Positions 34,901 to 64,000 of a stretch of DNA of 64,000 nucleotides are shown in pieces. A program made the position numbers and the translations under genes. The notes below the pieces were generated by a model. The model was given only the letters and a program-made list of their open reading frames with translations, had not been told where the DNA came from and did not search any database. The stretch covers positions 13,825,760-13,889,759 of the forward strand of contig JAJEKV010000021.1 of the NCBI GenBank assembly GCA_021234155.1. Direction: 5' to 3'. Position 1 is the stretch's first letter; each line of letters starts with the position of its first letter. The DNA is from Isoetes taiwanensis (lineage: Eukaryota; Streptophyta; Lycopodiopsida; Isoetales; Isoetaceae).

Positions 34901-35018
34901 GCTCCTGAATGCAAACAATATCAGGACGCAACTGCCGAAGTGCCAAAGAAACACGGGCCCTCTTACTACTAGAGGACCGCACCCCCCGCACATTCCAACT
35001 AAGGATCGACCTATTCAT
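31912..35018 (-). pseudogene. LINE ORF2: endonuclease and reverse transcriptase, frameshifted
   Basis: Starting at MNRSILSWNVRGVRSS (35,018) the protein shows an APE-type endonuclease: LRPDIVCIQEHKCHRGDM, then in another frame WGIVNVYAPNQPSRPG and LLGDFNMVE, then SNILFTSISDHYPQ. The long frame 34,469-33,528 covers the linker (LNTRLLADADF, LKEGDTSSSVFFRAARQR) and the start of RT (KCPGLDGIPVEFFQ). Further on come NDWRPISLL, KVQSGFVPSRNIL and the catalytic FADDTFLFLVAE, then GRITIAKSVL and FVWGGDDEGAIVKVAWWK of the C-terminal region. At least four frameshifts and several stops break it. The enzyme would nick target DNA and reverse-transcribe the element RNA. Confidence 0.88.
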
Positions 35019-36778
35019 CCCGGAGGAGAAGTGTCCAGCCCCACATGCCTACCCACCAGGCCATCAGCCCACTCCACAGAGTCATCATCTAGAGCCAGAG
35101 GATTAATCACAGCAATGTGACCCACAGCCGCTCTACGTGAGATTCCACTTCCAACATGTGTTGGAAGTCTCCCAGGCATCTCCATAGAGTCATGGGCCAC
35201 ACTAGTCTCTACCTCCAACCGGGCTGCTCCAGCCACCTCATGCTCAGCACATACCGCTACCTGGACATCCCCATCAGGATCATCAGCCCCTCCCACAGCC
35301 CTGTCCTCAGACCTAGCCACAACCAAATCATCTGAGCCCTCCCCTGAGCCACCACGTCCCCTAGCCCCGCCATCCAATGGGCGGCCAGCAGCAAGCCTGC
35401 CCCGGCCTCGTCCCACACCACCTCTCCCAACCACACCACCTCGTCCAACTCCACTCACTACACCACGGAGTCCTCTATCTGTTGCCTCAGGAACAGAGGA
35501 ATCCCGGGCCCCTGCATAAGCACCCGCAACCCCTACCACATCACAAGCACCAGCAGGATCATCAACATGGTCAGATGGTAACACAATAGATGGAAACATC
35601 CGCCGGATCTCAGAGCCATTCAAAAGCTTCAATCGGAAGAGAAAATGCCAGGGACCACTACGCACTGGAAGAGAAGTGGGCACATGCTGCAAAGCAGGCA
35701 GAGCAACACAGATCTTGGGGACCTGCACAATAGAATGAGCCAAATATACACCCAGGCCATTAGCCATAGAAACCAAGAAATCAGGCACCATCAGATCAGG
35801 AGGAAGATCCTGAATCTGGAACCAACACGGGATTTTAACCGCTGTCAAAGAACTGGTGGACATTGCCGGAGTATAATACTGATACAACACATAAGATTCA
35901 CCCAAAGTATCCACCCCCCGACTAACCAATTGCCGCACAGAAGACTCGGCCTCAAACATGATTATGAAGAAATTATTTGGTAGGAATTTCAGAGACTGAT
36001 ACCTGGGCAAACCAATCCGCCTCAGATGTCCAGCAAGCCAAGAGCTAAACCTCCTCGTGTCCAATATGTAACCCGTGAAGTAGCCCAATACCGCAAATGA
36101 AACTAGATTCTCAATGGTCTGAACATGTCTGGTATGATCAATATCTATCCATGGAGTCTCTGGAAGAACTGCCTGCAGGTCAACAGAGTGATGATCCTCC
36201 ACAAATTTCAGAGCCTCTTGAACACGGGCAGTCCTACACTCTGGAGCCTTGCGCTTGATCCAATCTGAAAACCCCGGCCGAGTGATGCGAGCAACAGTGT
36301 CATTGCTCTGCCAGGCCGGGCGCACAGGAGTTGGGGCTGCCGCCCTGGCATCCTGAGAGGTATCCAGGGGCACCCCAGGAGGCACATCAGCTACATGCAC
36401 CCTAGAAGAGGGCGCATCACCAGCAAGTGATCCCTTCCCAAGCACAGGGGAAGAGGGCATCACAGATCCAGTTTCCAAAGGGGGCATGCTTGATGGGATC
36501 AAGACTGGAGTCTCCAAAACACAATCTACTGGGGTCTCAGAATTATATTGAGAGGAAGAGCAATCCACATACCTCTCAATCGAAGGGGATTCCAAAAGCT
36601 CCCTCATCTCTGCCACCAATTGCATGCCACTTCCTACAGCCCGCGCCTCTTCATGCATGCCGAGACCCGCGCCCTTCCCCTTTACTGGAGGATTCTTCCT
36701 CCTCGCCATCTCCCTTGGCTTCAGCCCCAAGCCATGAGGCTCAATCGATCCCCCATCAGCCTGTCTGGCAGGAGCCAT
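35015..36778 (-). CDS. LINE ORF1, DUF4283-like RNA-binding protein
   Basis: This intact 587-codon frame opens at the first ATG of the element. Residues about 1-210 are low-complexity. Residues about 220-400 form a DUF4283-like core (LGYFTGYILDTRRFSSWLAG, LKFLPNNFFIIMFEAESSV, VKIPCWFQIQDLPPDLMVP, WHFLFRLKLLNGSEIRRMFP), as in the gag-like ORF1 of plant LINEs. The usual CCHC knuckle is not visible. Instead residues about 436-480 are Gly/Arg-rich (RGG-like), which could bind RNA. The stop overlaps the ORF2 start as ATGA, an arrangement that permits termination-reinitiation. The protein would package element RNA. That this frame stays open while ORF2 has decayed is notable. Confidence 0.85.
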   Translation of the reverse strand: MAPARQADGGSIEPHGLGLKPREMARRKNPPVKGKGAGLGMHEEARAVGSGMQLVAEMRELLESPSIERYVDCSSSQYNSETPVDCVLETPVLIPSSMPPLETGSVMPSSPVLGKGSLAGDAPSSRVHVADVPPGVPLDTSQDARAAAPTPVRPAWQSNDTVARITRPGFSDWIKRKAPECRTARVQEALKFVEDHHSVDLQAVLPETPWIDIDHTRHVQTIENLVSFAVLGYFTGYILDTRRFSSWLAGHLRRIGLPRYQSLKFLPNNFFIIMFEAESSVRQLVSRGVDTLGESYVLYQYYTPAMSTSSLTAVKIPCWFQIQDLPPDLMVPDFLVSMANGLGVYLAHSIVQVPKICVALPALQHVPTSLPVRSGPWHFLFRLKLLNGSEIRRMFPSIVLPSDHVDDPAGACDVVGVAGAYAGARDSSVPEATDRGLRGVVSGVGRGGVVGRGGVGRGRGRLAAGRPLDGGARGRGGSGEGSDDLVVARSEDRAVGGADDPDGDVQVAVCAEHEVAGAARLEVETSVAHDSMEMPGRLPTHVGSGISRRAAVGHIAVINPLALDDDSVEWADGLVGRHVGLDTSPPG

Positions 36779-37403
36779 GACATCCGAACCAGTCCGAAAA
36801 TCAGCTGTTTGCGGCCTCTACCTGTGGGAATTTGTCAATGTCCAAAAAAGATAAACCAGAGTTATTTGGCTGGGTGACAATTTTTTGTACATGGCATTGT
36901 TATATATTAATATATCTATTTAGTTTACTTGCATGGTTATTCATCGCAATCGATCTGCATAGACCAAGCCGATGCTATTCAACGCCCTTCATGGTGCTGC
37001 CGACTGTAGCAGGGGGGTCAAATCCTCTTAGAAAGTGCTATGTGAGGTTTAAGATCTGGCTTTAGCATTTGGCTGTAGATGGTTGTTAGTGATTTGGAGT
37101 GGCTGTTAATGTTCGAGAAATTTTCAGAGTGTTAATTTAAGATATTTTAAGGTTTAAGATGTGGTTGTGATGTTTCTTGAACTACTTGTAGTTGCATAGC
37201 TCTTGTGTGCAAGTGAAGACCTTCTTATAGAGAAGATCGAGTTCTGCAAATTTCCATGGCAATTTTAAAGTGATTTTGTGTTTTAAACTCTAATTCTTTT
37301 GTTGCTATCAAGCTAAGGTACATTCTAACCATAGTTTTATTCTGCAGGTTGCAATGGGTAATGTGTTCTGGCTTATTGTCCTTATTAAAATGATAGTTGT
37401 TAT

Positions 37404-37984
37404 GTGTTTATTAGTATGGTTTGTGTGTTTATTAGTATGGCTTCGAACGTTATGGAAGTGGATAGCCCGTCCTTTTCCCTACAGTCGACTGCTTCCCTTG
37501 GTCCTAAAGAAGAGATAGGGGATGTTGATCAGTTTCTGAAAAATCCAAATCTTGATGAAATAGATAAGTTTATGGCAGAAGTTGAGAGGAAGATTGGTAT
37601 AATGTTGATTTTAGGGATCCAACAAAAAAGGATGCAAGGAAAGAGGTTGAGGATGAGAGGTTCTTGCCTCTTGATGAAAAGATAATGCATGATGTGAATC
37701 ATGGAGGGAAAGATGGGTTTTCTAAGGTGACTGATTGGGCAAGGCGAAAATTTGATGCTTGGAGGGTGCTCAGGAAGTTTGGTACTTCTGTTCCCATTGA
37801 AGATATTCCCTTACCCGAGATGAATGTGATGCTAGTCATGTTCATGATCCAGGTGAAGAGTAACAATGGGAAGTTGTTCTCTACAAGCAAGTTAGTATTT
37901 ATTGATTAGTTGATTTTTAATAATTAGTTCTAATTAATTGTGTTTTTATGCAGCTTGAATAAACTGTTTAAAACTATTGGTCAA
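37404..37984 (+). pseudogene. Recombinase N-terminal and core-binding (SAM-like) domain
   Basis: The start region reads MASNVMEVDSPSFSLQSTAS. After one frameshift near 37,590 it continues VDFRDPTKKDARKEVEDE, then VTDWARRKFDAWRVLRKFG, IPLPEMNVMLVMFMIQVKSN and GKLFSTS. A GT-AG intron of 63 bp (37,891-37,953) then splices to LNKLFKTIGQ. The pattern, a Trp/Phe-rich helix, a short D-I-P-x-x-x-M/L link, a long helix, N-G-K-x-x-S and a final L-x-x-L helix, is that of the N-terminal DNA-clamp domain of Crypton/DUF3504 recombinases. Reading resumes after the nested insertion with SRKRQDMIIEQTGNDKQKFN at 39,740, in a shifted frame. Confidence 0.65.
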
Positions 37985-39732
37985 ATTATAAGAATAGAAT
38001 AGAATAGAATATGATTTTATCGTCCACGGAGACCAACTGGCCTATGGGACCCAAGTACAAAGAGAGAGCAGCAGGCGTATTATTACCAGGATTAAAAAAC
38101 CCCCGCCCCGAAGGGTTTTCGGGGGAAAAACCTTAGTAGCAATAAGGATGCTGACATACTGCACAGTTATATACATAGTCACAAGTACATTTGAGGTTAA
38201 TGTGGGACGGGGGCATAAGCGAGTCCGGCGTGATCCATTACCTCCCTGAGGTACGATCCCAACAAGCCTACAGAGGAGGCGTGCTCTCGGTAGCTCATGC
38301 AAGGCCCGATGGGGCACAACTAACCGAAAGCATACCGAGCCCGGATATGCTGATGCACGGACAGGCCACGAGGGCGTGACTTTCATCCTCAATGGCCACG
38401 TTGGCAAAGACTCGGCTGACTCTGTCCTCACGCGGCCCCGAATCCATCTCCTCAATGCGAATGCGGAGGTGGTGTGCACCTGTGCGAATGGAAGCAATCA
38501 CCCTGCGCTTTTTCATGGGTAGATGGGTGCGCAGTAGTGGTGTGGGCCCCTCGTGAGCATGGGATTAACCTCGCTGCCGATAATTTGCCACCTTGACATG
38601 TGACGGGGCCTCTCGCATCCCAAAGCTTGGCCATGAAGCAAGCATCCAAGTACTGCAGTAGCGTTCCGCCCGGTGTATGCAGCGGGTCCACATCGTGTGC
38701 TGCACATTCCATAGCGAGAACCAGCGGGCTTGCTTGTCTTTCCAAAGCAGGCTTTGAGTCGCATTGCGGGCCCATCGCCCGCCAAAGCAAGGTTGGGCAG
38801 CGGGGCTTCATCCATAGCCACCACCTTCCGGAAGTAAATAATGTGACGTTCGGTGTAGCCCTCTGTAATGGAAGGAAGCCCGTCTCCCGGAGCAAGATCG
38901 ATATGGGACCGTGGATTTCACTCCCGATTGCACGGGCCAAGAAGGCCTTACAGACTGCTCTAGATCGTTCCAAGTGGTGAGGGATATCAGCGGCCCCCCA
39001 CTTACGCCCCATAGAGGAGGACCGGTTCAACCAAGGCCTCGAACAAGTGTGCCTGGTGACCCCATGCATACTGACTCGCCTTGGATGTTGTTTTGCATTG
39101 CATCTGAGGGCTTTCCAAACTGCAATGACCCGTAACGATGGATGCATCCCGGTGTGTGGTAGTAGAAAACTCAATGCCCAAATACTTATAAAGATCGAGC
39201 CACCTCCACTACACCTTTGGTAAGTGAATGAGGGAAGGCGTGGGTGCCGGGATGATGGGACCCAAAGAAGCACCCTTGTCTTGGCCAAGTTAACTCTCAT
39301 GTCGGTGAATTGGCGAAAGTGTCCAAAGCATCCGGTGGCGTTGCATGTCCTCCAGGGTATATGCGGCGGTCAACATCATCGGCATATATGAGTTGCTTGG
39401 GATTATGTGGTGCATCAATGGCGCCCCAGGTGCTCGGTGGCCATTCTTCTAGCTGGTCAATGTACAAGCCGAAGAAGCGCCGGGGATAGAGGGCAGCCCC
39501 GGGCGCACCCCAATGCTACTAACAACGGGCTCCCCCGACAGTGTGAGACGACCGGAGCAAGCCTCGTATAGTCTGTATATAGCATTCTGCAAGTCGACGG
39601 GGGTCCCTAGCTGTCTCAATCTGTCCCACAACTTATCCCGAGGCACTGTGTTAAAAGCCTTTGCGAAATCCACAAAGCAACAGTACAGATTCTGTCCGGC
39701 TATCCTCTATGAGTGTTCGCAGAGTGAAGATA
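37985..39732 (-). mobile_element. Non-LTR retrotransposon, 5'-truncated, microsatellite-tailed, nested in copy 1
   Basis: The minus strand encodes an RT palm starting at the insertion edge: LRTLIEDSR, VDFAKAFNTVPRDKLWDRLR, GVRPGLP, then in another frame FFGLYIDQLEEW and the catalytic QLIYADDVD, then YKYLGIEFS and ALVEPVLLYG. The C-terminal end reads TGAHHLRIRIEEMD and ANVAIEDESHALVACP. This ending (hydrophobic LLYG box, then R-x-G-x-H-x-L-R-I, then IEDE-x-H) differs from the zinc-finger end of ordinary plant LINEs such as the one at 31-37 kb. The 3' tail is a pentanucleotide repeat, (ATTCT)3, rather than poly(A). A short direct repeat TGGTCAA flanks it (37,978-37,984 and 39,733-39,739). It is broken by frameshifts. 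Confidence 0.78.
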
Positions 39733-40211
39733 TGGTCAATAGTAGGAAGAGACAGGACATGATCATTGAGCAGACAGGAAATGATAAGCAAAAATTCAAT
39801 GTATATCAGCTTTAATCTCAAGTGCGAGTTATTGGCAGATCGTTATTTCTAGATTAATATTTTAGGTTAGCATAGACTGTTAGTATGGTTTTTTAGGTAA
39901 ATATTTTAGACCAGTGATGACTATATTTTACCAATTTTATAAATCTAAATTTGATGGTTTAGTAGGATGCATTAGCTTATAAAATCGCCAAAATTTGATA
40001 ATATTGCATCCTAATTATAGTAAATTTGCCAAAATAATGGACATTCTATAGTAGAAGATCTTAATTTTTGGTAAGACGTTTTAATTCTACTAAAATCGTT
40101 TTTATAAAAAAGCTAGAAAAATAGAAACAATCGCCACCATTTCTCTGGTTTAGAAGTAGATAGAGGATGATAAAGTCATCACTATTTTAGACTAATTTTT
40201 TTCTGTTGTAT

Positions 40212-41323
40212 TGTAGGTTGCTAGAAAATGACGTGCTACTATATGGTTAGCAGGTTTGGAATCAGAGGTAACGCGGAGCCACATGGGGTCCTTGATTATG
40301 GTATGACTTTGTACAATGATAAATATGGAGATTCTAGTCAGCACAGAGAATGAACATCAAAGAATTGGAACTGTAGTATGACAAGGTTTGATGATTCTTA
40401 CTTTCGACCTGCAATTCAGAACTATGGATCAGATTTTGTCGAGACATACATGCAAGTTTATTTCTATTATTTTCTTTAGATATTTTATTTTGCTAACCTG
40501 TTTGTTGTTTTATGCAAGTGTGTAATCAAAAGATCCCTATGGGTATTAATAAGTTACGCATTTGGCTGCAATCAATGGAAAGTCTTGTGACTGATATTGA
40601 AATCACTAATAATTGTGGTCGTGTACCTAGTTGCTAGACTTTTGATGGCTGGAGTGCCACCTGAGGTAATTTGTATTTTTTTTCTTTTGTTATTTATTTT
40701 TTTCCATTTGTAACTTTATCTCCTGCTTTCTGCAGGTATGAGGACAAGGAAATGCAGGTTGATACTGAGTATTATGGCATCTCCATATAATGAAGATGGA
40801 ACTTTAAAGGTTTACAACGACGTGTTCAGCAAGAGGAGACAAGAAAAAGTGATATTACATCATCATTTAATGGTGGGACGTGTTCTACTAAAGGGATTAA
40901 GGATATTAGCAGTGAAAAACCTGTGGGTGATGAAAGTAAAGATAGGTAATTATTTTTCTTTATTCAATTTTAATTTCTTTGTTAAGTTTCTTTAGTAACA
41001 TTGTTATTTAAAGATGTTGCTCTGTCTATTATTCCTTCTGTAGCCGTTCCTTCTGTTTCTACAAATAGGAATGCTACTAGTGATGGAAAGAATAGTCTTG
41101 TGAATTCTGGAAGTGACACCGAAGCAGCTGGAGATAGACGATGATGTTTGGAAAAAAGTGGCTGAAAATTTGTCCTGAAGTAGAAGGTGGTAGTTTCATT
41201 GCAAATTCTACAATACAGTCATTCATGACAACAACAAATAAAAAATATGTGTTTATGTCAATTTCAATGGTGGATCCTTCACATGCTAGAGCGATTGTTG
41301 AAAATGTGTTGCTTCAATTCTAA
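40212..41323 (+). pseudogene. Crypton-like tyrosine recombinase catalytic region, copy 1
   Basis: After a splice acceptor (TTGTATTGTAG) the frame gives FGIRGNAEPHGVLDYGMTLY, matching the first catalytic Arg box (F-G-L-R-G-x-x-E-H) of Crypton/DUF3504 enzymes. The next parts, PMGINKLRIWLQSMES and DIEITNNCGRVP, correspond to the V-G-x-N-x-L helix and the second Arg box. A deletion of about 49 bp relative to copy 2 (after CCACCTGAG) removes the T-G-H box, and another of about 87 bp removes part of the middle. After the acceptor TTTCTGCAG at 40,737 the tail resumes (YEDKEMQVDTEYYGIS in one frame). The tail ends in a 60-codon frame at 41,141-41,323 (EGGSFIANSTIQSFMTTTNK). Confidence 0.7.
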
Positions 41324-42490
41324 AATGTGTTGCTTCAATTCCAAAAGTTCCTTGAGGATATCTGATACATTATTAGAACTTTAGTGTGAAGTTAGACATT
41401 CGGTGATATTGTTTGAACTTGAGTGTGATGCAATTTTGGACTTAGAAATCCAATGATATGCAATCTTTGTTTCAACTGTTGAAATTTTGACTTGGAAATT
41501 TGAATTTGATTGTCTATTTCAATGTGAACTTTTATATGTTTTAGTTGTGTGAAGTTGTTGTATTCATGTCTATTTTAATTTTAAGCTTTATTTAAAGCGC
41601 CCCCTGAAATCTGACTACAAAAACACTAAAAAACTAGTAGAAATGCAGGCCTGGGGTAAAGGATAGGGTGGGGATAGAGAAGTTACATTCAGGAAGTTTA
41701 TTTCGACATGATTATCTAGTGGAGTTTGATGGTATGCTTCTGTTGTTGTTGGTCCTGTATAATGAAATGTTAACTATGTGGACTTTATCCAAGAGTCATT
41801 TGAATGTGAGAAAAAGCATAATGAATGTATGTTTATACGCAGGGAGCTTACATTTAACTTAGTTATTTGGTATTAGTATAGTTTTACTAGTTGTTAGATG
41901 GATTTCGTTTTGTTTTTTTATGCTTGTGGAGTTGCAATGGTTTAGAAGAGGTTTGTACGATGTGTAAAGCATAATGAATGAATCCCTTCCCTCTTTGTCA
42001 CCTGAATGCGACATTGATACAAGTGATAAGGGACGTACATAAAGTTTCCTATTGCTTAGAGTTTGTGCATTCTATACATTTTGAGGCGCAATAGGAAAAA
42101 GGTGTGCAAGTTTAGTTACTTCATGTTACTAAAGATTATCACAATTGACGAGTATACTAGCTTTAAGCTTATGGCAACTTGATGAGGTGTAAAGACATTG
42201 ATGCGTAGGACATGGCGATTTTGTAGCATGTGTATTGTACTTGTTTTTTCTTGTGGTTTCGAATACCTGTTTTTGATGAAGAATGTCAACAACAATGTTG
42301 GGTCAGTATGCGAATTTGGAACATGCTGCTGCTGATACTTTTCCAATTCCAGACGTCATTATTTGCACTATTGGGAAACAAAAGCCAAGAAAGCAGTGCA
42401 GGTTATTGTGTGTATGTGCTGATTCCAAAAGGCCTTGCCTTGCAATAAAACAGAGCTATCGAGTTAGACAATATGGACAGTCTCACATTA
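41324..42490 (+). repeat. 3' part of the element, shared by both copies
   Basis: This tracks 62,900-64,000 closely. It includes GCGCCCCCTGAAATCTGAC and near its end a frame reading MLGQYANLEHAAADTFPIPD then VIICTIGKQKPRKQCR, which looks like a real exon of an unrecognised protein because it stays readable in both copies. Copy 2 runs out of the window here, so the right limit cannot be set. Confidence 0.6.
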
Positions 42491-59345: not shown

Positions 59346-59852
59346 TTTATTAAATATGTCAGCTACTTTGTAATTACAAGAAGGTCCATGCTGGATTTTT
59401 AAGTTATAGAGTACTATTGAGATATGCATTCCCACATTTCATGATTCTCAAATTCAATGGCAGGATTCAACATGCTTGACCAGAACAACAAACCTTTAAT
59501 GCAAAAAAAAAGACATTCAAAAGTAGACTATGAAGCATTCAAGGCATGATGGTGTAGGAGCCAAGAACAAGAAAACAATAGATATCAGCTTTAATGTCGA
59601 GTGCGAGTTATTGGCAGATTGTAATCATCAAATTAGCTTCAACACAGGTTAGTTTCCTGGTTTATTTCAGGTTATTTTAGATTCTTTCAAAGTTAGTTGT
59701 AGGTTATTTCTAGGTTAATATTTTAGGTTAGCATAGACTGTTAGTATGGTTTTTTAGGTAAATATTCTAGACCAATGATGACTTTAAGGTGTGAATATGT
59801 AGCAAAATAACAGGGGGTTCCAGGGGGATTTGATATGAATGTAAAAAATAAC

Positions 59853-60208
59853 AATTCCTGAAACCATAGACCATATATCCCTAAAACAATTGAATGGGTT
59901 GTTATAAAAAAAAACATAGATTCAAGATAAAAAATAAACACATTAGCTCACTGGGTATATTAGTTAATGTAGTCTTATTAGGAGAATGAATTATTTTGGT
60001 AGAGGTTCGAGCCCCCGTATTTCATATTCTAAAACCTTAGCAAAGTCGTATAGAGGTTCGATATTTCCTCAAAACCTTAGGTGAAATCGTATTTCATATT
60101 AGGCGCCTCCAATCATAAATGACTATAAGCGAAACGAAAGGTGCTAACAGGCCCCAACATACGATCTGGGTCATAGGATCGACGAATCCGACGGCTGTGG
60201 TAGTCCAG
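59853..60208 (+). mobile_element. SINE-like insert bounded by 37-bp direct repeats
   Basis: The insert has a pol III-like A box (TTAGCTCACTGG, 59,943-59,954) and a B box (GGTTCGAGCCC, 60,004-60,014), the spacing and order of a tRNA-derived SINE. GGTTCCAGGGGGATTTGATA begins a 37-bp block at 59,816-59,852 that recurs exactly at 60,209-60,245. The block is too long for a normal target-site duplication. Copy 1 of the surrounding element has no insert here (GATGACTATATTTTACC). Confidence 0.6.
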
Positions 60209-60673
60209 GGTTCCAGGGGGATTTGATATGAATGTAAAAAATAACCAATTTTATAAATCTAAATTTGATGGTCTAGTAGGATGCATTAGCTTATAAAATT
60301 GCCAAAATGTGATAATATTGCATCCTAATTATAGTAAATTTGCCAAATTAATGGACATTCTGTAGTAGGAGATCTTATATTTTGGTAAGACATCTTAATT
60401 CTACTAAAATAGTTTTTATAAAAAAGCTAGAAAAATAGAAACAATCGCCACCATTTCTATGGTTTAGAAGTAGATAGAGGATGATAAAGTCATCACTGTT
60501 TTAGACTAATTTTTTTCTATTGTATTGTAGGTTGCCAGAAAATGACGTGCTACTATATAGTTAGCAAACGCGGAGCCACATGGGGTCCTTGATTATGTTA
60601 TGACTTTGTACAATGATGAATATGAGATTCTAGTCAGTACAGAGAACGAATATCAAAGAATTGGAACCACAGT

Positions 60674-61384
60674 ATGACAACGTTTGATGATTCTCACTTT
60701 CGACATGTGATTCAGAACAATGGACCAGATTTTGTCAAGACATACATGCAATATGTCTGGCACTTATCTGAGAAAGAGAATGAAAGGTTGCGCCACTCCT
60801 TCTTGCAGACAATTCCTAATCCACGATACAATGTAAGTTCCTTTCTATTATTTTCTTTAGATATTTTATTTTGCTAACCTGTTTGTTGTTTTATGCAAGT
60901 GTGGTATCAAAAGATCCCTGTGGGTATTAATAAGTTACGCATTTGGCTGCAATCAATGGAAAGTCTTGTGAGTGATATTGAAATCGCTAATAATTGTGGT
61001 TGTGTCACTCTAGTTGCTAGACTTTTGATGGCTGGAGTGCCACCTGAGGTTAGGATGCTGATTACTGGCCACGGGAAAGTGGAATCTTATAACAAGTAAG
61101 TAATTTGTATTTTTTTCTTTTGTTATTTATTTTTTTTCCATTTGTAACTTTATTTCCTGCTTTCTGCAAGTATGAGGACAAGGAAATGCAGGTTGATACT
61201 GAGTATTATGGCATCTCCATATAATGAAGATGGAACTTTAAAGGTTTACAATGATGTGCTTCAACAAGAGGAGACAAGAAAAAGTGCTATTATATCATCA
61301 TTTAATGGTGGGACGCGTTCTACTAAAGGGATTAAGGATATTAGCAGTGAAAAACCTGTGGGTGATGAAAGTAAAGATAGGTAA
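60674..61384 (+). pseudogene. Crypton-like tyrosine recombinase catalytic region, copy 2
   Basis: Exon pieces read FVKTYMQYVWHLSEKENERL and QTIPNPRYN; then after an intron KIPVGINKLRIWLQSMESLV, NNCGCVTLVARLLMAGVPPE and RMLITGHGKVESYNK, a donor GTAAGT, and from 61,171 YEDKEMQVDTEYYGIS. The arrangement V-G-I-N-x-L, N-x-x-G-R-V-T, A-G-V-P, T-G-H and a Tyr nine residues after the His is that of Crypton/DUF3504 recombinases. The Arg of the second box is Cys here (TGT) but Arg in copy 1 (CGT). The first Arg box is lost in a 24-bp deletion near 60,568. The likely nucleophile Tyr lies at the exon junction. The enzyme class cuts and rejoins DNA without copying it. Confidence 0.75.
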
Positions 61385-61445
61385 TTATTTTTGTTTATTC
61401 AATTTTAAATTCTTTGTTAAGTTTCTTTAGTAACATTTTTATTTA

Positions 61446-62365
61446 GGTGGCTTATCCTCAATCAAAGCCTTACTTGCAATGTAGCAGCTTCAAAATATAA
61501 TTATGTTATAGATGCAGCATGTGGGGCGGGCTGTGGGCAGGAAGAGAATCCCCTACACATATTCCAGTGCCCGTGGTTGTTGCCTTTCTGGAAATGGGTG
61601 CAGAATCTAACCATCTTAACCCCGGGCGCTACAAGTGCCAGCTTTCTACGTTTCCTTGATGAAAATAATCCCTTCACATCCACTATTAGATCCATAGCCT
61701 TATGAAGCATCTGGCTTCACAGAAATAGGGTTACCATGCAGAATCTGCCTCCAAACATGAACTGGTTAAAAGGACAATTCATTGCAAAGCTGATTGAGAC
61801 TGCAATTGCCCATAGGAGAGAAAGAGGACTAGAATATGACAAAATGTGGGATAAAATTGGTGCATTCAAGGGTCTGTTTAACCTTTTCAAGTTAGTCTTG
61901 CAGATGGGGATGATAGTCTGGAATCATTGGCATCCAAAACAGCACCTTGGCCTCTTATCTAATCATTTATTTTTCTGTTATTTTATTGCAGCACAATTCA
62001 ACAAATTGAGAGCTCATGGCTCTTTCAGGATGTTCAATCCGGATGCAGAAATGACTCGGGTAGAGGTTGGAGACACACTGGTTTCACTCAAGATGTACAT
62101 TGTCAGGGCAAAAGCTTTACGAAGAATTCTGAAGCAGGATGACCTGTGGCAGCAGAACTCTCTCAAGCCTATTTTCAAAAAATTGTTCCAGGAGCAGCAA
62201 AGGCAGAGGGAGGCAATGTCAGTTAGCCTGCTGGACAACACCATGCTTACTATACATGAGTTGGATGAATCGCTTCAGATTTTGGGCAGGAACAAAATAG
62301 AGGAATTTGATCTTGGAAATCTGATCCAAGCTGAAGCAGAAGTATTCAGACCAGAAGAAAACTAA
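61446..62365 (+). pseudogene. LINE ORF2 C-terminal region (zf-RVT-like plus tail)
   Basis: The frame opens at the insertion edge with WLILNQSLTCNVAASKYNYV, then CGAGCGQEENPLHIFQCPWL, the Cys/His cluster of the plant LINE C-terminus, a TGA near 61,703, and WLHRNRVTMQNLPPNMNWLK. The 209-codon frame 61,736-62,365 continues the C-terminal tail (QREAMSVSLLDNTMLTIHEL) to a proper stop TAA. The reverse transcriptase domain is missing because of 5' truncation. Confidence 0.75.
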
Positions 62366-62565
62366 GTTTATCTTTGCTGTTTTAAGCTTTTCAGGAACTT
62401 TCCAGCTTTTATATTTTACTGTTATACATATTAGGACCCGAGATCTCTCCATAGTGAGAGACTATTTATGTGACTGTTAAGAAAGGAGATTTTTAAGCTC
62501 CTTTTCTAACTGTATTTCATGTTATAATGAATACAAACTCTGCCTTTATTCCCCCCCAAAAAAAA
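61446..62565 (+). mobile_element. 5'-truncated LINE nested in copy 2, 14-bp target-site duplication
   Basis: AACATTTTTATTTA occurs at 61,432-61,445 and 62,566-62,579. Copy 1 has the empty site (AACATTGTTATTTA, near 41,000). The insert is about 1.12 kb, ends in a short poly(A), and codes on the plus strand for a LINE ORF2 C-terminal end. This gives an exact, independently checked insertion. Confidence 0.95.
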
Positions 62566-64000
62566 AACATTTTTATTTAAAGATGTTGCTCTGTCTATTG
62601 TTCCTTCTGTAGCCGTTCCTTCTGTTTCTACAAACAGGAATGCTGCTAGTGATGGAAAGCATAGTCTTGTGAATTCTGGAAGTGACGCCGAAGTAGCTGG
62701 AGATAGACGATGATGTTTGGAAAAAGTGCCTGAAAAATTGTCCCGAAGTAGAAGATGGTAGTTTCATTGCAAATTCTACAATGACTAATACAGTCATTCA
62801 TGACAACAACAAATAAAAAATATGTGTTTATGTCAATTTTAATTGTGGATCCTTCACAGGCTAGAGCGATTGTTAAAAATGTGTTGCTTCAATTCTGAAT
62901 TCCAAAAGTTCCTTGAGGATATCTGATACATTGTTAGAACTTTAGTGTGAAGTTAGACATGCAGTGATATTGTTTGGACTTGAGTGTCATGCAATTTTGG
63001 ACTTGGAAATCCAATGATATGCAATCTTTGTTTCAACTGTTGAAATTTCGACTTGGAAATTTGAATTTGATTGTGAAATTGTAATATTTCAATGTGAACT
63101 TTTATATATTTTACTTGTGTGAAGTTGTTGTATTCATGTTTTAAGTCTATTTTAATTTAAGCTTTATTTAGAGCGCCCCCTGAAATCTGACTACAAAAAC
63201 ACTAAAAAACTAGTAGAAATGCAGGCCTGGGTAAAGGATAGTTCACGAAGTTTATTTTGACATGATTATCTAGTGGAGTTTGATGGTGTGCTTCTGTTGT
63301 TGTTGGTCCTGTATAATGAAATGTTAGCTATATGGACTTTATCCAAGAGTCATTTGAATGTGAGAAAAAGCATAATGAATGTATGTTTATACGCAGGGAG
63401 CTTACATTTAACTTAGTTACTTGGTATTAGTACAGTTTTACTAGTTGTTGGATGGATTTCGTTTTGTTTTTTGTGTTTGTGGAGTTGCAATGGTTTAGAA
63501 GAGGTTCGTACGATGTGTAAAGCATAATGAATGAATCCCTTCCCTCTTTGTCACCTGAATGAGACATTGATACAAGTGATAAGGGACGAACTTAAAGTTG
63601 CCTATCGCTTAGAGTTTGTGCAATCTATACATTTTGAGGCGCAATAGGAAAAAGGTGTGCAAGTTTAATTACTTCATGTTACTAAAGATTATCACAATTG
63701 ACGAGTATACTAGCTTTAAGCTTATCGCAACTTGATGAGGTGAGAAGACATTGATGCGTAGGACATGGCGATTTTGTAGCATGTGTATTGAAGTACTTGT
63801 TTTTTCATGTGGTTTCAAATACCTGCTTTTGATGAAGAATGTCAACAACAATGTTGGGTCAGTATGCGAATTTGGAACATGTTCTGCTACTGATATTTTT
63901 CCAATTCCAGACGTCATTATTTGCACTATGTTTTGGATTGGGAAACAAAAGCCAAGACAGCAGGGAAGCTACAGGTTATTGTGTGTATGGGCTGATTCCA

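Follow-up and report, generated by a model that had tools for sequence, protein, structure and literature searches.

The closest described systems are the Cryptons, DNA transposons mobilized by a tyrosine recombinase (YR), which in the accessible text of a 2011 survey are placed in fungi, animals, oomycetes and one diatom (Kojima and Jurka, 2011; PMC3212892). As presented there, the CryptonF, S, A and I groups are elements whose boundaries are hard to define, with terminal direct repeats of 4-6 bp in CryptonF and S and none found in A and I (PMC3212892). The Pfam domain of their recombinase, DUF3504, also occurs in the animal genes ZMYM2/3/4, QRICH1, KIAA1958 and KCTD1, which the same text treats as host genes without most of the catalytic tetrad (PMC3212892). 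On the plant side, one DUF3504 sequence has been named solely as a candidate Crypton-derived gene, with no further analysis in that source. The ALOG domain of land plants is no transposon, being described as an N-terminal domain that a host recruited from an element of the DIRS1 type (PMC3537659). Rows labeled “Crypton” in angiosperm repeat tables (PMC7261831, PMC4873823, PMC10722297) are masking counts amounting to 0.00-0.05% of the genome; they share the label, and the accessible portions of these articles present no element, ends or enzyme behind it. In a literature collection with few subscription journals and probably no Repbase Reports, the titles and abstract openings of the matches listed contain no description of a land-plant Crypton, and no paper combining Crypton and Isoetes was found. 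One article contains, in its accessible text, both Crypton and Selaginella as words (PMC8969392).

A comparable family is present in the lycophyte Isoetes taiwanensis, in which the window analyzed here (the whole stretch of DNA, 64,000 nucleotides) holds two decayed members, copies A and B, of a YR DNA transposon family, each split by a LINE-like insertion. The element was delineated from copies outside the window and is approximately 3.2 kb in length, with a left end beginning GTAGGG and a right end terminating in GGTTAC. A palindromic cap is found at the left end only, a TATA-like box is present, and a subterminal inverted repeat is common to both ends. The single recognized gene is a six-exon YR gene; neither reverse transcriptase nor Rep/helicase was found in the 10 scanned of the 18 listed frames of L009, one of the delineated elements. 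With the accessible description of Cryptons (PMC3212892), this element shares the YR mobility gene, the lack of a detected reverse transcriptase and of a target-site duplication, the DUF3504-type recombinase and the existence of non-autonomous derivatives. Unlike the Cryptons in that text, it has a plant host, a palindromic left cap, a subterminal inverted repeat, an extra exon 6 and a replacement of the HxxR His, and it carries no GCR1_C or C48 domain, both of which were absent from the proteins scanned.

The family is large. In a search with the catalytic exon of L006, a related copy, 150 of 990 first-look candidates were scored and all 150 matched, with identities of 48-100%, which sets the copy number at 150 or higher. 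Because every scored exon matched and the weakest did so at E 3.2e-15, the family, with copy B among its members, lies far beyond chance. The right-end pattern has 47 matches in the genome (0 in a reversed control) and the left-end pattern 41 (2 in the control). Judged by position, 23 of these 47 right ends each have a single left-end partner, which gives 10 long elements, of which eight measure 3.0-3.7 kb and two are longer, and 13 short derivatives of 598-1133 bp that keep both ends. For roughly half of the right-end matches, the patterns used identify no left-end partner, and the right-end match of L006 is an internal break. All 10 long two-ended elements sit on YR copies, nine by a catalytic-exon match and L012 by DNA alignment. 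L027 has both ends and is missing the second palindrome arm, so the full cap is not universal among copies. A further group, L066 and its relatives, has approximately 50% protein identity and other end sequences arranged in the same layout.

Copy A (~37039..41449, plus strand) lacks its left terminus, has a right terminus that is unplaced, and contains one of the LINE-like insertions. Its local alignments with L009 begin at 37039 and stop at 41449; by blastn it matches 14 of 14 YR loci, the matches starting at 37161-37169 in nine and ending at 41325 in eight. The interval of 37404-42490 proposed in the initial annotation does not quite coincide with this extent of homology to full-length elements. 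On the plus strand, exon 1 (37354..37890) spans the N-terminal region and the start of the core-binding domain in a broken frame, and its counterpart is open in L005, L006 and L009. The first part of exon 2 (37954..37990; LNKLFKTIGQIIR), which has a homologous exon in L009, is followed by a minus-strand LINE-like retrotransposon fragment (~37991..39743, borders approximate) that is foreign to the YR element; its minus-strand frames resemble reverse transcriptase by eye, and it is missing at the same place in L009. The remainder of exon 2 (39744..39850, borders approximate) is identified by likeness to L009 exon 2 and by blastn to copy B from 39789. Exon 3 (40217..40455) carries the first catalytic Arg box, SRFGIRG, in translation and has a homologous L009 exon, with its 3′ part lost, and exon 4 (40519..40667) encodes GINKL, NNCGRV and AGVPPEV before its frame breaks, without the ITGH segment. 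Exon 5 (40736..40945), placed by comparison with L006 exon 5, is expected to begin with the catalytic Tyr codon, and exon 6 (41013..41323, start approximate) corresponds to the C-terminal region, as judged from blastn to L006 up to 41325 and from the translation of relatives.

Copy B (59568..64000, plus strand) is missing its 5′ part, and its homology to copy A runs beyond the window end. The two are 88-91% identical in three larger blastn blocks within the window, and their homology extends into a wider local duplication. Exon 3 (60531..60835) is frameshifted in translation, whereas exon 4 (60899..61096; C1025:13886658-13886855 in the genome search) is open, retains VGINKL and AGVPPEV, and ends in ITGHGKVESYNK. 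It lacks the Arg of HxxR, since NNCGCVTL is read there and Cys takes its place. A plus-strand LINE-like insertion with an A-rich tail (61447..62565, borders approximate), recognized by eye and as a gap in the A/B alignment, is foreign to the element. Copy A, for its part, retains the core-binding region, FGIRG and NNCGRV and lacks the ITGH...Y stretch, and both copies have Asn in place of the HxxR His. In translation, the full set of catalytic residues is kept in neither copy, and the expected boxes, which the initial annotation read from both copies together, are all present only as a composite of the two. The predicted Tyr nine residues past His is well placed in L006, where ITGHRKVESYSK is joined to Y across the junction of exons 4 and 5. 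Several introns were also correctly recognized, their splice sites being conserved between copies. Each of the seven first-group copies for which splicing was attempted has one or more defects, in some cases visible just as an exon that did not match. Fungal Cryptons carry introns, and so those found here are not the oddity they were taken for.

Two Pfam profiles had been suggested as checks on the recombinase, and both return matches. DUF3504 is matched by four of the five members of the set A1 (best 1.1e-7, one over the cut-off): one related family scores 32.5 bits against a cut-off of 29.7, and the window's own family falls below it at 21.1-24.5 bits. Phage_integrase is matched by two of the five, and the phage integrase family phrog_1 by three. 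A2, the family of the window copies, and A3, the one that matches DUF3504, can be aligned with each other over 288 columns with a probability of 99.3% (E 3e-20). Taken singly, L066 and ten L009 frames had no Pfam match, and a PDB sequence search had none. Within A1, Arg I is present in four of five rows, with Gln in L001, and Arg II in all five. The Tyr is likewise found in 5/5, its codon in the L001 row having been taken from L003, and the GH-motif His further along is also present in 5/5. The HxxR His is found in none (R, K, K, K, V), so that the R-H-R-Y tetrad is incomplete throughout, and R, R and Y are all kept in four of the five. In this, and in being multicopy elements with ends, they differ from the animal DUF3504 genes. 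Between two subfamilies, L001 and L009 differ in exons 1-4 at 78% of synonymous and 16% of nonsynonymous sites, whereas within one subfamily L006 and L009 give a ratio of 1.14. Constraint between subfamilies and none between these two copies of one subfamily is the pattern expected of a working lineage that sheds decaying copies.

The insertion sites define the ends with precision. The target duplication is zero at 19 of 20 paired sites and 1 bp at the other. Of 38 right flanks, 34 begin with a G, and at most sites this base is all that the two sides have in common; GTA or a longer string is common to both in 8/38. The corresponding repeats of CryptonF and S measure 4-6 bp in the survey text (PMC3212892). 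Over a span (-4 to +3) picked after the junctions had been inspected, sites resemble TTACGTA, the sequence of the joined ends (TTAC/GTA), at 3.48 of 7 positions versus 1.91 in flank controls, a value that 0 of 20,000 draws reach. When the flanks of L038/L039 are joined, 28 of 35 matches span the joint, and the six that were aligned are gap-free there, which gives this insertion many contiguous empty paralogues. The insertion site of L023 is duplicated in tandem, and the second copy, having no interruption, constitutes an empty site; the joined flanks of L017 have a single joint-spanning match, aligned with a gap at the joint. C44 and C918 have one insertion site in common. One element directly adjoins the apparent right terminus of a relative, a single case. 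A search for head-to-tail junctions as a possible sign of circles produced 1 match versus 4 in the reversed control, and this match was retained because its flank is homologous to the right-end regions of relatives.

With a probability of roughly four in five, the window copies are relics of YR DNA transposons of the DUF3504/Crypton kind, with catalysis and movement through a circle both surmised. The earlier proposal that a land plant carries a Crypton-like YR element is upheld by the DUF3504 and integrase family matches, the precise ends and the insertion without target duplication. The elements are read as a putative new group of Crypton-like YR transposons with a replaced HxxR His, a likeness drawn from profile matches and ends rather than from a YR tree. 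In the proposed mechanism, the recombinase is expressed from a promoter that lies immediately internal to the left cap and would bind repeated CCACCTG-containing motifs near both ends; it would then join the ends into a circle with a GGTTAC/GTAGGG junction and, through strand exchange, integrate that circle into chromosomal TTAT/GTA-type sites. For the short derivatives, mobilization in trans is proposed. Such a large and diverse lycophyte set brings YR DNA transposons to vascular plants and provides a plant source of site-specific recombinases. It also suggests that a whole class can escape the repeat libraries of plants. Besides exact boundaries, the set offers derivatives, empty insertion sites and a motif at the target, which make the circular-intermediate model directly testable.

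Other origins account for parts of this picture. Helitrons have TC...CTRR ends and insert between A and T, or between T and T. Helitron2-type elements resemble the Isoetes element in their asymmetric inverted repeats, terminal hairpin and lack of target duplication, and the absence of a duplication, the strong palindrome at one end only and the asymmetrically placed inverted repeat would suit a rolling-circle element carrying the YR gene as cargo. This origin is nevertheless improbable: the enzyme and target site differ, no Rep/helicase match appears among the L009 frames that were scanned (10 of 18), the GTAGGG...GGTTAC ends do not fit the Helitron pattern, and the site signature consists of a G after the right end and likeness to the core. 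Moreover, all 10 long two-ended elements sit on YR copies, and the ends change between families together with the YR gene. Descent from a DIRS or Ngaro type retrotransposon that lost its reverse transcriptase, less probable still, would equally explain YR use and insertion without duplication, both of which are features of those elements. However, complete ~3.2 kb elements have the YR gene alone in the same scanned L009 frames, spliceosomal introns are not expected to outlast regular retrotransposition, and the reverse transcriptase-like frames in copy A belong to the insertion that breaks it.

It is about as improbable that a YR element was domesticated into a family of host genes and that the copies are pseudogenes of this family, spread by duplication. 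The introns, the exons that remain open and the constraint seen from one subfamily to another would agree with such a history, as would the local duplication behind the window copies and the insertion site shared by C44 and C918. For families with ends, however, it is contradicted by the recurrence of the same ends at unrelated sites, by short derivatives and empty sites, by the lack of constraint between L006 and L009, and by the presence of at least 150 copies; a single domesticated locus may exist elsewhere. Contaminating DNA in the assembly, whether fungal or animal, as the initial annotation had named for grounds of rejection, or from an oomycete, is the most remote of these explanations, because the 47 right-end matches are spread over 34 contigs and 16 of 20 stretches belong to contigs that exceed 10 Mb. 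In addition, the sequence interrupted by one insertion has some 30 relatives across this genome.

More speculative than the Crypton-like reading, and rather unlikely, is a separate eukaryotic YR superfamily that diversified in lycophytes, in which the left palindrome would be a functional recombination site, acting either through a folded single-stranded form or through a segment that can invert, and joined ends would be a preferred landing site, leading to head-to-tail stacking. Integron attC sites work somewhat like such a folded strand or invertible segment. The cap center occurs in both orientations among copies, as would result from recombinase flipping of the cap loop; inversion is not claimed, since the longer palindromes in L020, L024 and L026 allow simple deletions at CCACCTG repeats to give both forms.

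The tyrosine recombinase (YR) elements of Isoetes taiwanensis are a Crypton-like group of DNA transposons in a lycophyte. Two decayed members lie in the window (C1025:13825760-13889759), copy A at about 37039-41449 and copy B from 59568 to beyond the window end; their base identity is 88-91% in three larger blocks, and their homology extends into a common duplication. Exon 2 of copy A is interrupted by a LINE-like piece and copy B by a second one (both labeled by eye). The ITGH...Y stretch is missing from copy A, and copy B carries NNCGCVTL at the place of an Arg in its relatives; judging from the sequence, we infer that neither copy encodes a working enzyme. Directly upstream of copy A, a minus-strand open frame of 600 residues (35015-36817) is possibly part of a retroelement.

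Across the searched genome (1,658,258,908 bases, 1110 contigs), exon 1 of copy A gave 53 matches among 82 scored candidates, and exon 4, the catalytic exon, of locus L006 matched at least 150 times: among 990 candidates 150 were scored, and every one of these was a match, with identities of 48-100%. Fourteen YR loci (L001-L006, L008-L015) formed the comparison set with the window copies, all serving as subjects and nine also as queries. A first group (L005, L006, L008-L014) shows about 86-97% identity. In a second set, about 70% identical to the first, L001-L003 are 93-96% identical and L004 matches L015 at 89%. A deeper lineage with about 25% identity to the window’s family (L054, L055, L063 and L064, on G000:C148, C606, C31 and C1035) is apparently intron-split too; it matches Pfam DUF3504, with the L054 protein exceeding the cut-off.

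DUF3504, which according to Kojima and Jurka (PMC3212892) originates from Crypton recombinases, matches four of the five proteins in our YR alignment (best 1.1e-7), the first row of which is L001 supplemented with exon 5 from L003. Two of the five match Phage_integrase (best 1.6e-4), and three match phrog_1, a family of phage integrases (best 1.5e-4). Relative to the DUF3504 cut-off of 29.7 bits, the L006 protein lies below at 24.5 bits and L054 above at 32.5 bits, and the protein of L066, from a family with other ends, has no match to this profile. Profile alignment joins the window’s family side to the L054 side at 99.3% (E 3e-20). The whole genome yields 13 DUF3504 matches up to E 10, two of them above the cut-off, versus zero in 14 control genomes. 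The His of the catalytic HxxR box is substituted in all five alignment rows, and L001 is also without the first Arg; catalysis by the group is presumed.

A single gene lies between the element ends, and its splice sites recur in other copies; in L006, exon 5 has the catalytic Tyr codon as its first complete triplet. L009 has 18 open frames that reach 60 aa; in the 10 scanned, no Pfam match was found, reverse transcriptase and helicase included. The C-terminal region encoded by exon 6 (e.g., L009 3599-3967), VWEKCLKNCPQLEGGS..., is a recurring one and hits no Pfam family up to E 0.1. Selection was computed for L001/L009, L006/L009 and two pairs with L066. Between subfamilies (L001 versus L009, exons 1-4, 430 codons), the proportion of differing sites is 0.78 for synonymous and 0.16 for nonsynonymous positions, whereas within one subfamily (L006 versus L009) the values are 0.019 and 0.021 (ratio 1.14). 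These few pairs indicate constraint between lineages but not inside them, a pattern typical of transposons.

The borders of the first group are drawn by a sharp loss of similarity at identical sequences. The left end reads GTAGGGGG(A/G)AAC, and most copies continue into a palindrome, roughly 68-112 bases long, with a final CCCTAC; in L005, an inner left motif, GTGGCCTACACCACCTGGAAATTCC, comes after this cap, with a TATA-like GGGGTATAAA about 16 bases past it. The right end, GGAATTTCCAGGTGGTGTAGGTTAC, closely resembles that inner motif in reverse complement. Three caps fold as single-stranded DNA far above shuffles (z -10.4 for L005, -14.3 for L024, -13.7 for L066), and L027, in which both ends are present, is missing the second arm of the palindrome. 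Both orientations of the palindrome centre occur among the caps examined (L005-L014, L016-L029); the long forms point to deletion within a larger palindrome, not to inversion, as the source of this difference.

When up to three mismatches are allowed, the right end has 47 matches on 34 contigs versus 0 in the reversed control, and the left end 41 versus 2, some of the three-mismatch left matches resembling another repeat. Judged by position, 23 of the right ends have a single left-end partner each, giving 10 long elements and 13 short derivatives (598-1133 bp). Eight of the long elements measure 3008-3689 bp, and the others, of 6.7 and 10.5 kb, are taken to contain insertions; two long elements, on C44 and C918, have identical flanks and therefore count as one insertion. 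The L029 right end is preceded by three left ends, and the remaining 23 of the 47 have no left-end partner by the patterns used. At L029, positions 251, 906 and 1578 mark three repeat units in tandem, about 660 bp long, each of which contains the same flank and the element left end. A repeated variant, GTAGGGGCAAAATTTCGCCACTTG (G000:C966, C1054, C1055, C1070), may represent the left end of yet another family.

L066 and its relatives, with about 50% protein identity to L001, have GGAATTTCCATTACCTGGCGGTTTAC or a variant of it as their right end, with G as the next base in four of five copies. Their readable left ends (L066, L068, L071) have a whole or partial palindrome and an inner left motif like GTAAGCCGGCAGGTAATGGAAATTC, matching the right end. 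This right-end pattern has 21 matches genome-wide, inner left motifs and internal repeats included, and 0 in the control. Because the same layout is kept despite different end sequences, we argue that it is probably functional; it has no counterpart in the published descriptions compared.

For insertion sites, 27 left and 39 right flanks were taken, and one of each (L036, L037) was removed as a repeat of the L012 site. The set used comprises 26 left flanks, which represent 24 loci because the L029 tandem array contributes three, and 38 right flanks, each from a separate locus and no two alike. Target duplication is zero at 19 of 20 paired sites and a single base at the other. The right flank starts with G in 34 of 38 cases, the exceptions being L022, L035, L046 and L006, the last an internal break. 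Over a span picked after viewing the sites (four bases before, three after), the 20 paired sites and L009 resemble the element’s own junction, TTAC|GTA, at a mean of 3.48 of 7 positions, versus 1.91 at random positions in the same flanks (3.48 reached in 0 of 20,000 draws); with the G omitted, and controls also having G, likeness is 2.52 versus 1.61 of 6 (p 5e-5).

When the two flanks of the C941 insertion (L038/L039) are joined, the resulting sequence has 35 matches in the genome. Of these, 28 cross the joint, among them two that do so by no more than about ten bases and two that span the whole query; the remaining seven comprise the insertion’s own two flanks, two flanks of an apparent second copy of it, and three partial matches. 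Six aligned empty sites read AACAAT|GTAAAAGG or a close variant without a gap at the joint. The sequence interrupted there (L038/L039 flanks, G000:C941:16124731-16128275), an open frame resembling by eye a DNA methylase motif, has about 30 genomic relatives. L023 lies within a local tandem repeat whose adjoining unit is uninterrupted, and the sole match crossing the joint of the L017 flanks aligns with a gap there.

The ends, the insertion signature and the recombinase family are demonstrated; a circular form of the element is presumed. Right end joined to left end occurs at one place, C1007:18075284-18075307, with 2 mismatches, versus 4 matches in the reversed control. There, the stretch 44-100 bases before the left end aligns over 56 bases, at 78% identity, with right-end regions of several loci, L010 and L052 among them; the flank terminates in CCTGTAGGTTAC. 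We read this single case as an element that apparently inserted exactly at a relative’s terminus, as site-specific integration predicts.
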